Shown here: positions 20,460 through 22,745 of the stretch, piece after piece
Position numbering within the stretch: the stretch's first letter is position 1
How the letters are laid out: each line of letters starts with the position of its first letter
IMG/VR virus record: IMGVR_UViG_3300030108_001044
Coordinates: 1 to 46,124 of that record
Origin: a virus
Length of the DNA: 46,124 nucleotides
Strand: one strand, 5' to 3'
Position numbers and translations under genes: made by a program
Notes under the pieces: generated by a model
What the model saw: the letters and a program-made list of their open reading frames with translations, nothing else
What the model was told of the DNA's origin: nothing
Database searches by the model: none

Positions 20460-20645
20460 TTAATGATGTAGTGCGGATAATAAGAGACGGTCACAAATGT
20501 TTTTTAACCTCTCATCAATTCTATTATAGCAATGATCTGCTAAATATAGCAAGTCGTCGTTACAAATTGTAATATATGAAAGGTGGCGTCGATTGTCAGC
20601 TTCTCTGGCTTTTTCGAGCTCGTCTTTTTTCTTGTTAGTAATCAT
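20460..20645 (-). CDS. Hypothetical early protein (61 residues)
   Basis: MITNKKKDELEKAREADNRR, then YITICNDDLLYLADHCYNRI. It is helical and charged. The start overlaps the previous stop (ATGA). The function is unknown. Confidence 0.62.
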   Translation of the reverse strand: MITNKKKDELEKAREADNRRHLSYITICNDDLLYLADHCYNRIDERLKNICDRLLLSALHH

Positions 20646-20845
20646 AAGTATAATGTGTTACCTTTGATAATAAAATCACCATGCTCTGGTTCGTCGGCAG
20701 GGTCATGGTATGGATAATTCTTGTCATTGTGAAAATTATTTAGAGCTTGTTGCTCATTCTCTAGTTGTGTTGCATACTCAATGAGTTGCTTTTGCATTCT
20801 AGGAGTAAGAGTATTGAATAACTCTTGATACTGTTGTTTAGTCAT
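20642..20845 (-). CDS. Hypothetical early protein (67 residues)
   Basis: MTKQQYQELFNTLTPRMQKQ, a helical Gln-rich protein with an acidic DPADEPEHGDFI end. Its coding sequence includes one TCACAATGACAAG motif (minus strand, near 20727) also seen in the nearby repeats. Both ends overlap neighbours (ATGA). Confidence 0.62.
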   Translation of the reverse strand: MTKQQYQELFNTLTPRMQKQLIEYATQLENEQQALNNFHNDKNYPYHDPADEPEHGDFIIKGNTLYL

Positions 20846-20952
20846 TTAATTTTTTTAAGGATGGTTGCTAGTTGGTCAAGTTGTTTTTGGTTTAGCTTAT
20901 CAAGTGACTTAGTATTGAGAGCTTTTTTAAAACCGAATGGATCTTTGTACAT
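20842..20952 (-). CDS. Thirty-six-residue basic early peptide
   Basis: MYKDPFGFKKALNTKSLDKL, ending LATILKKIK. The stop overlaps the next ATG (ATGA), and two bases separate it from the preceding stop. Basic and helical. Evidence is the tight fit only. Confidence 0.55.
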   Translation of the reverse strand: MYKDPFGFKKALNTKSLDKLNQKQLDQLATILKKIK

Positions 20953-20954
20953 AA

Positions 20955-21089
20955 TTAAAACTTAACTGATTTACGAGGACGATTAATAGTTGTTGGCAGT
21001 TTAGTATATCTAACTGTCATTAACTGTGGTTTGCATTGCATCTGTAGGTGTTCGATGGTTGCTTGTAGTTGTTGTTGATAGTTAAGCAT
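20955..21089 (-). CDS. Forty-four-residue early peptide
   Basis: MLNYQQQLQATIEHLQMQCK, then basic to RPRKSVKF. It is the first frame after the second sigma70 promoter (start about 20-25 bases after the predicted transcription start). No clear Shine-Dalgarno. The function is unknown. Confidence 0.55.
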   Translation of the reverse strand: MLNYQQQLQATIEHLQMQCKPQLMTVRYTKLPTTINRPRKSVKF

Positions 21090-21115
21090 GATGTTTGATT
21101 GATTGCTATATTATA

Positions 21116-21144
21116 ATAATAGTTGATAATGAGTAATAAGTCAA
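21116..21144 (-). promoter_or_regulatory. Second early sigma70 promoter
   Basis: On the minus strand TTGACT (21144-21139), exactly 17 bases, then TATTAT (21121-21116). It lies between the first early gene (stop 21158) and the next (start 21089), so it would reinforce early transcription by host RNA polymerase. Confidence 0.68.
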
Positions 21145-21157
21145 GTGTTGTTTACAT

Positions 21158-21316
21158 TTAGTAACATAACTCTTCAAAGCGTTTACGTGCCATAATCTCA
21201 GCGGCATTGGCTATGTCATCTTGAGTGAATATACCGCATGGATTATGTGTTGTAAAATAGTCTAGCTCTTCTTCGTATAGTGTTTCTAGTAGCTCGTCGT
21301 TTACTGGATGGCTCAT
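21158..21316 (-). CDS. First early gene, acidic 52-residue protein
   Basis: MSHPVNDELLETLYEEELDY, then FTTHNPCGIFTQDDIANAAE and IMARKRFEELCY. ATG 21316 has AGAGG nine bases upstream, and a consensus sigma70 promoter lies about 30 bases further on. It is the first gene transcribed after entry, so host takeover is an attractive role, as for T7 gp0.3-type acidic proteins. No similarity to a known inhibitor is evident. Confidence 0.72.
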   Translation of the reverse strand: MSHPVNDELLETLYEEELDYFTTHNPCGIFTQDDIANAAEIMARKRFEELCY

Positions 21317-21345
21317 AAGGTTTACCTCTGATTGTTTATATTATA

Positions 21346-21374
21346 ATTATATATCATGTATCTGTATATGTCAA
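21346..21374 (-). promoter_or_regulatory. Perfect-consensus host sigma70 promoter for the early genes
   Basis: On the minus strand TTGACA (21374-21369), a 17-base spacer, then TATAAT (21351-21346): both hexamers match the sigma70 consensus exactly at the best spacing. It stands at the border between the GC-rich genome-end region and the first early gene, as the T7 early promoters do. Predicted transcription starts near 21339. Confidence 0.88.
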
Positions 21375-21453
21375 GCAATATGTTTACATTCCGTAACATT
21401 ACAACCGCACAGATGGCGAGCCAGTCGCATCAGTCTCAGAGGTGAGACGCTCC

Positions 21454-21472
21454 GCTCGTGCTTCGCACTCGC
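21454..21472 (-). repeat. Hairpin GCGA-N4-GAA-N4-GAGC, copy 1
   Basis: The minus strand reads GCGAGTGCGAAGCACGAGC: GC outer pair, GA/GA opposed bases, a GTGC/GCAC stem and a GAA loop. The same design appears in opposite orientation at 21545-21563 with a different but still paired stem. Confidence 0.7.
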
Positions 21473-21535
21473 TCGCTTACCACGGTGCAATGCATGTGTC
21501 AAGTGTGCCAGCGTACAAACTGTCCACCGCCGCCG

Positions 21536-21563
21536 AAAAAAAAAGCGAGGCCGAAGGCCGAGC
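21536..21563 (-). terminator. End-of-genome terminator and hairpin copy 2
   Basis: Read on the minus strand, a GGCC-TTC-GGCC hairpin (21563-21545) is followed immediately by nine T (21544-21536). It lies about 70 bases after the last late gene (stop 21631), so it fits an intrinsic terminator for late transcription. On the plus strand the hairpin reads GCGAGGCCGAAGGCCGAGC, an inverted relative of the one at 21454-21472. Confidence 0.65.
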
Positions 21564-21630
21564 GGGCCGGTTTACCGTACCCCAATGGGGGTTGACAGGC
21601 CGCCGGAATATCCGCATAGGTCAGACAAAA

Positions 21631-22179
21631 TTATGTCAAAAATTTATCGCCTTGGTATTTAGCATATTCTCCATTTGCTTTTACATAATGAAAGAAAGTT
21701 TGTATATAAAATTCTGGTTTATCTGTTATTAATAAATCTCTCCAATGTTCTACCTGTGGACCTAAATAAATAACTCCATCGCCCACGTTAGTAATAACTT
21801 TAGTAGTAGAACCTTGTAGGTCTGTAATATAAAGTCCCCAATCAATGGTAGATGCTAAGTTTATAGATACACTAATTTCACATGATGGTCTATCTTTATG
21901 ACTAGCCATATATGAATTATTAGTATATCCAGTTATAAAACAATAAGTTGGTAAAAGTTTTTCTCCTACAACAGTTTCAATTTTAGATTGAACTTGTTTA
22001 TACATCTCTTGTAGTTCAGCTGGATTATAACATTTCCAAACCCATCCTCTATTCCAGTTATAAACCATAGGTTGAGTTTTAATTACTTCATCAGTAAATT
22101 TTTGAGATGTTTTATTACAAAAATCTACTGGTAAAATATTATTTATTTTTTGATAACCTAAAGAATTTAGTGTTGTCAT
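21631..22179 (-). CDS. Putative Fe(II)/2OG oxygenase, last late gene
   Basis: It has 182 residues. SYMASHKDRPSCEISVSINL supplies His94-x-Asp96, and GDGVIYLGPQVEHWRD supplies the distal His145 followed by Arg147. This arrangement, with DWGLYI in between, recurs in many marine phage proteins of the 2OG oxygenase type. Substrate unknown: hydroxylation of a host protein, nucleic acid base or small molecule are all possible. It follows a second oxygenase gene by two bases and ends before the GC-rich genome-end region. These two genes are more AT-rich than the replication genes. Confidence 0.75.
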   Translation of the reverse strand: MTTLNSLGYQKINNILPVDFCNKTSQKFTDEVIKTQPMVYNWNRGWVWKCYNPAELQEMYKQVQSKIETVVGEKLLPTYCFITGYTNNSYMASHKDRPSCEISVSINLASTIDWGLYITDLQGSTTKVITNVGDGVIYLGPQVEHWRDLLITDKPEFYIQTFFHYVKANGEYAKYQGDKFLT

Positions 22180-22181
22180 AA

Positions 22182-22745
22182 CTATTTAAACTGTGGTCCA
22201 TTCATCCAAGCAACAAGGCTATATCTTGTACCTTTTGTAACAGGTGATACTCTATGTACTACCCATGATGGAAACACGCAGTAACTACCAGCTTTCATTG
22301 GTACTGGATAAATAGTCTGATCTTGTGGACTATATATTTCTAAGTCTCCGCCTTCAAAATTATCATTTAATAATAAGGTTATAGATAGTTTTCTAGGTAA
22401 AGGTCTGTCATTATTTATTGGACCTTGGTCTATATGCCAACCATAGTGTTGAGTCTTTTTATATTGAGTTACTTGTATTTGATCATCAAAATGTACTAAA
22501 TCATAACAAAAATAACCAGTATTAACACTAATCATTATGTTGTGTAAAATACCAGCTATCCAGCTATCGTCATGTAACCAACTATTGCTAGAGGTTCTAT
22601 AACTTTTATCTTTCATATTAGTAGTACTTTGACTGTACTCTAAACTTTTTGCTATCTTTAACATTTCTTTTAGCATAATCGTTGGTAATTCCGATTCTGC
22701 TTGAATATGTGTTCTGGCAGCAAACCAAGGGTTAATTTGATTCAT
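22182..22745 (-). CDS. PKHD-type Fe(II)/2OG hydroxylase
   Basis: It has 187 residues with a textbook prolyl-4-hydroxylase-like core: HYGWHIDQG (His104, Asp106), RKLSITLLLNDNFEGGDLEI, and VFPSWVVHRVSPVTKGTRYS (His164, Arg174 for 2OG). The ending LVAWMNGP is typical of the PiuC/PKHD group. Enzymes of this group hydroxylate peptides or, in cyanophages, unknown targets. The start MNQINPWFAAR is clear. It lies in the last transcribed block with talC. Confidence 0.9.
   Translation of the reverse strand: MNQINPWFAARTHIQAESELPTIMLKEMLKIAKSLEYSQSTTNMKDKSYRTSSNSWLHDDSWIAGILHNIMISVNTGYFCYDLVHFDDQIQVTQYKKTQHYGWHIDQGPINNDRPLPRKLSITLLLNDNFEGGDLEIYSPQDQTIYPVPMKAGSYCVFPSWVVHRVSPVTKGTRYSLVAWMNGPQFK

Follow-up and report, generated by a model that had tools for sequence, protein, structure and literature searches.

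Phages with T7-type genome ends, such as T7, T3, P-SSP7 and Syn5, carry a direct terminal repeat (DTR) of 150-250 bp between the terminase and the early genes, which in P-SSP7 was measured at 206 bp (PMC3350473). How the left terminal repeat is completed in these phages is still not fully understood (PMC3350473). According to one report, T7 RNA polymerase pauses at the concatemer junction and engages the terminase (PMC3276506), and ATCTGTT is the class II termination signal of this polymerase (PMC9624206). Small hairpins closed by a C-G pair are known from other settings. The DNA minihairpin d(GCGAAGC), whose C-GNA-G triloop sits on two or more G-C pairs, has a Tm of 78 °C and is nuclease resistant (PMC4686876); the cited cases are synthetic oligonucleotides. 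The small promoter hairpins of the N4 virion RNA polymerase need a C-G closing pair and loop bases 5' G and 3' A to extrude from duplex DNA, they extrude in vivo, and their stem sequence is partly free (PMC4496689). REP and REPIN elements, tagged with GTAG or CGTC, are short palindromes that often form inverted dimers (PMC3733652). Here, we describe a conserved inverted pair of such hairpins inside the predicted DTR of marine cyanopodoviruses, for which no earlier description was found in the literature on hairpins in cyanophage terminal repeats.

The DNA analysed (called the window for simplicity) is the whole IMG/VR virus record IMGVR_UViG_3300030108_001044 with a length of 46,124 bp. About 98 identical bases are repeated at both ends of the record, indicating that it was assembled as a circle. 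On the minus strand it encodes a T7-like large terminase, a transaldolase, a T7-like RNA polymerase, a DNA polymerase, a primase/helicase, a portal protein and psbA. The large terminase shares about 85% identity with those of P-SSP3, P-SSP2, NATL1A-7 and P-SSP7, and the virus is a P-SSP7-like cyanopodovirus. Its RNA polymerase scored best with the phrog_414 RNA polymerase family, far above the N4-like family. An endonuclease I and a 5'-3' exonuclease are encoded as well; their T7 counterparts act on branched DNA and on ends. Read in gene direction (minus strand, to which left, right, top and bottom refer throughout), the genome has the terminase and transaldolase genes followed by two oxygenase-like genes, a GC-rich island (57-61% GC versus 26-39% nearby), a consensus sigma-70 promoter and the early genes, i.e. 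the island separates the last late gene from the first early promoter. This promoter (TTGACA-17-TATAAT, 21346-21374, minus strand) matches the consensus at 12 of 12 positions. Comparison of positions 20600-22300 with cultured phages by DNA similarity gave no match.

The island contains two 19-mers at the places and on the strands given in an earlier, sequence-only reading of this DNA: H1 (GCGAGGCCGAAGGCCGAGC, GCGA-GGCC-GAA-GGCC-GAGC) at 21545-21563 on the plus strand, which is the bottom strand with respect to gene direction, and H2 (GCGAGTGCGAAGCACGAGC, GCGA-GTGC-GAA-GCAC-GAGC) at 21454-21472 on the minus strand, i.e. the top strand. They are the sole two matches to GCGAN4GAAN4GAGC in the 46,124 bases, far above the chance expectation of 0.01 derived from dinucleotide shuffles, none of which contained two. 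The same reading had described them as oppositely oriented, about 70 bases apart and differing in two stem pairs with pairing kept; indeed, the copies are inverted, 72 bp apart and exchange two base pairs without loss of pairing. Predicted DNA folding energies of -2.7 and -3.4 kcal/mol (z of -0.5 and -0.7) are those of ordinary hairpins. The energy model may undervalue sheared G.A pairs, and the case for H1 and H2 rests on conservation and not on predicted energy.

To place the pair relative to the genome ends, DTR edge motifs were calibrated on three cyanophage records with direct terminal repeats, namely P-SSP7 (206 bp), Syn5 (237 bp) and S-TIP37 (150 bp), of which the ends of P-SSP7 alone are backed by a paper; all DTRs called predicted below were obtained by transfer of these motifs. 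In all three records the distance from the first base of TTTTGRCA to the start of the repeat is 26 nt. The surroundings of this motif are conserved also at positions outside the search pattern, and T7 and T3 have a similar left-edge sequence. ATCTGT directly follows the repeat in Syn5, S-TIP37, T7 and T3 (P-SSP7 has ACCTGT) and is present at the junction of K1F, K11 and SP6 too. In the window, the left-edge motif (TTTTGACA) lies at 21634-21641 and ATCTGT, as at the T7 concatemer junction, at 21409-21414 (both minus strand), which delimits a predicted DTR of 201 bp at 21415-21615 (minus strand, 5' edge at 21615) with the sigma-70 promoter just outside. The predicted DTR coincides with the GC-rich island, and the H1/H2 pair is therefore placed inside the genome end and not at the cut. 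The genome-end location claimed by the sequence-only reading is thereby borne out; its suggestion that the hairpins mark the packaging cut is not supported: H1 starts 52 nt past the left edge and H2 ends 39 nt before the right edge, and the inferred cuts fall at other conserved motifs. Its further idea of a terminase or processing site holds in spirit, as a site related to processing, but not as the cut itself. Assembly programs hide terminal repeats in circular metagenome assemblies, and TTTTGRCA (26 nt before) together with ATCTGT (directly after) appears to allow placing them in circularly assembled cyanopodovirus contigs.

The predicted DTR resembles that of T7 in its place and length, its ATCTGT right edge, its left-edge sequence and a C-run/G-run hairpin near its start (CCCCC-ATT-GGGG, 21580-21591, minus strand). 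The T7 repeat carries CCCCC-ATA-GGGGG at +25, and a C3+/N2-5/G3+ element was found at +10 to +70 in 41 of 49 predicted DTRs; this hairpin is common to most cyanopodoviruses and T7. At a place similar to that of H1, T7 (DTR +65) and T3 (DTR +78) have bottom-strand C-GAA-G hairpins with differing stems. However, T7, T3, P-SSP7, Syn5 and S-TIP37 are devoid of the GCGA/GAGC clamps and of a second top-strand hairpin of this kind. A hairpin universal to the T7 family was considered and rejected, as gh-1, K1F, K11 and SP6 show none.

Related cyanopodoviruses were searched for the pattern at the same border, where it was present. In IMG/VR, 127 matches to GCGAGNNCGAAGNNCGAGC were found when the two inner pairs were allowed to vary; 74 of them were paired at both free positions versus about 8 expected, the others behaving like chance. 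About 45 of these 74 are located on cyanopodovirus contigs, in the stretch that separates terminase/transaldolase from the first early genes. A sample free of motif choice, consisting of 80 contigs taken by their terminase alone, showed clamped hairpins downstream of the terminase, bottom strand then top strand, and none upstream of it; 14 of the 26 contigs having both edges contained the element. Many contigs counted elsewhere were fetched with the hairpin pattern, which biases frequencies outside the terminase sample upward toward carriers, and with this in mind 33 of the 49 distinct predicted DTRs contained the element, and 28 of these 33 had the bottom-then-top pair, with the two copies mostly 50-76 bp apart. 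The 49 predicted DTRs hold 62 hairpins in total, as compared to zero in 100 rounds of shuffling. For the 42 distinct junctions that have both edges, the 8,675 bases of DTR contain 49 hairpins and the 390,908 bases outside contain six, two of which sit just past a DTR.

With further loci added, 73 junction contigs had at least one copy, in the order bottom-then-top in 44; the others were mostly truncated or had an extra copy. The consensus reads 5'-RA-GCGA-stem(2-5 bp)-GNA-stem-GAGC-GG-3'. These contigs contain 23 different stem sequences of 2-5 bp, and loops (GNA being required in the search) were GAA in 107 copies, GTA in 32, GCA in 4 and GGA in 2; a scan of the terminase sample with the loop left free again yielded junction hairpins that were nearly all GNA. 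The most common H1 is GCGA-GC-GNA-GC-GAGC with a two-pair stem. Near relatives with about 83-90% identity between their repeats differ in stem sequence and length but share clamps and loop type: in three close relatives (L008, L024 and L065), the place of H1 is taken by GCGA-GC-GAA-GC-GAGC, and L016 has GCGA-GCAGC-GGA-GCTGC-GAGC at the place of H2. Selection for structure, proposed earlier from the constant loop and covarying stem of two copies, is thus upheld across related cyanopodoviruses. Each read on its own folding strand, both H1 and H2 are preceded by RA and followed by GG, indicating that a single directional element is present in two opposite orientations. The distances to the edges are variable (52-168 nt with a median of 63.5 from H1 to the left edge, 23-80 nt with a median of 40 from H2 to the right edge), unlike a ruler for a cut site. 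In cultured phages, short-sequence searches gave NATL1A-7 as the sole real case, and S-RIP1 and P-GSP1 were added by reading their junctions. The edge motifs predict repeats of 229 bp for P-GSP1, 254 bp for S-RIP1 and 175 bp for NATL1A-7, each with its end immediately ahead of ATCTGT. The junctions of P-SSP7, Syn5 and S-TIP37 do not contain the element, which is hence not essential for T7-type ends but one solution among several. Presence of the element changed about five times on the terminase tree.

In 83 copies whose variable pairs had been left free in the search, all 166 pairs were Watson-Crick and none was G-T; these copies are related and do not represent 166 independent events, but they cover many stem types. 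The lack of G-T pairs disfavours covariation at the RNA level. Many H1 copies contain exactly GCGAAGC, the GAA form of the two-pair stem, and since the C-GNA-G triloop on a two-pair stem is the published ultra-stable DNA minihairpin, we read the element as a DNA rather than an RNA structure. The cyanophage element differs from the synthetic minihairpins in that it adds G.A clamps and is conserved in genomes. Next to the stem, the CGA/GAG step has the appearance of a tandem sheared G.A step, judging from the letters and from what is generally known of sheared G.A pairs. Each hairpin would then consist of a C-GNA-G triloop, a stem of 2-5 bp and a clamp made of the putative tandem sheared G.A step and two outer G-C pairs.

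The fold is probably of importance to how the genome ends are made or processed. We favour, with the balance about even, the view that H1 and H2 form, inside the DTR, a conserved and inverted pair of minihairpins of the DNA type, which is used as strand-specific structural signals or boundaries when the repeat is processed. The repeat would become partly single-stranded or be copied again when concatemers form and are cut, and the hairpins may fold whenever it is single-stranded or negatively supercoiled, be it while concatemers form, while ends are resected or while the repeat is being duplicated by copying ahead of packaging. An exposed bottom strand would fold H1 and an exposed top strand H2. 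In the interval from the left-edge site to the ATCTGT junction, the folded hairpins could act as strand-specific signals or as boundaries against nucleases, and the encoded endonuclease I and 5'-3' exonuclease are, by analogy with T7, candidate enzymes of the right kind. More tentatively, we suggest that a class of T7-like phages may mark its DTR with a strand-specific minihairpin pair, which would be recognized by a dedicated enzyme of phage or host origin in order to duplicate the repeat and finish the left end. Roles as the cut site or as a general terminator do not apply to the element, nor does it form a dispersed REP family. A conserved hairpin pair inside the terminal repeat of common ocean viruses offers a concrete sequence to test for left-end completion and, if the proposal is true, an example of the GNA minihairpin being used in nature outside N4 promoters.

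Protection of 3' single-stranded ends, in which each resected overhang folds one hairpin that resists nucleases, would be a narrower form of the reading favoured above. Resection of 5' ends exposes the bottom strand (H1) at the left end and the top strand (H2) at the right end, so that each 3' overhang carries one foldable hairpin, GNA minihairpins are known to resist nucleases (PMC4686876), and a 5'-3' exonuclease is encoded. The hairpins are, however, internal, 23-168 nt from the predicted ends, and sequence cannot separate such protection from a broader role in processing; we consider it doubtful, if still the foremost of the alternatives. It is improbable that the hairpins are N4-type promoters or sites of single-strand initiation, with a phage polymerase or primase starting from the folded strand. 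The C-GNA-G loop and the partly free stem do follow the N4 promoter rule (PMC4496689) and one copy per strand would suit a start on each strand, but the encoded polymerase is of the T7 type, loop centre and stem length vary, no constant start-site sequence follows the GG, and the N4 hairpins differ in place and order from the inverted cyanophage pair. Still less probable is an element acting in transcripts across the repeat as terminator, processing site or stability element. Each 19-mer folds on its own as RNA, and a pause of T7 RNA polymerase at the concatemer junction has been reported (PMC3276506). A tract of nine T on the minus strand (21536-21544, nine A on the plus strand) directly follows H1 in gene direction, and H1 is followed by a T tract in the close clade as well, which agrees with the nine-T terminator of the sequence-only reading as far as this clade is concerned. 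It does not generalize: at least four T directly trailed 2 of 67 bottom-strand and 0 of 69 top-strand hairpins. Moreover, H1 and H2 fold on opposite strands, so a single transcript shows just one of them, two-pair stems are common and unlikely to hold in RNA, and G-U was absent from the 166 pairs. An intrinsic terminator as the general role was rejected given these rare T tracts, and a terminator scanner found none in the window.

Least probable among the alternatives is a selfish or regulatory repeat of the REP/REPIN kind that has settled in the phage terminal repeat. Idiomarina aquatica has the same core at 13 sites, some of which form inverted pairs, and Sandaracinus has several copies as well; inverted pairing is reminiscent of REP dimers (PMC3733652). 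To this extent the REP-like element suggested by the sequence-only reading has a counterpart in some bacterial chromosomes. The phage copies, on the other hand, are almost wholly confined to the DTR in a fixed order (in the window two copies, both in the predicted DTR), carry no GTAG or CGTC tag and are flanked by RA/GG instead of the ACC/CTA of Idiomarina. A Y1 (RAYT) transposase (PF01797) was absent from the record, in a search whose control matched in 5 of 14 genomes. Among the matches listed in a scan of bacterial chromosomes, 88 of 129 were paired versus one quarter expected, and there was no cyanobacterium. The bacterial copies look like independent use of a stable fold. In Idiomarina aquatica, they lie within hairpin arrays with other flanks, in which GCGA-stem-GNA-stem-GAGC units are joined by CCTAAACC-like spacers; these arrays are REP-like without a GTAG or CGTC tag. 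In Sandaracinus sp., four copies of the hairpin core are spaced by about 120 or 235 bp in a tandem repeat.

Several further features of the window were observed. A search of the window for structured RNA families returned only a glutamine-II riboswitch, elsewhere in the genome (1370-1425, minus strand), which is next to psbA and well above the Rfam threshold. Positions 21631-22745 hold two adjacent 2OG-Fe(II) oxygenase-like genes. A protein search with the gene adjoining the island (21631-22179) found no relatives. The first of the two genes matches PHROG families labelled ferrochelatase, a label that may be wrong because all that Pfam shows is a weak match to an oxygenase. A 22-nt repeat (TGTTTACATTNNGTAACATNAC), a possible regulator site, is present twice in the early leader region, at 21149-21170 and 21381-21402, with 86% identity; one copy lies just upstream of the sigma-70 promoter.
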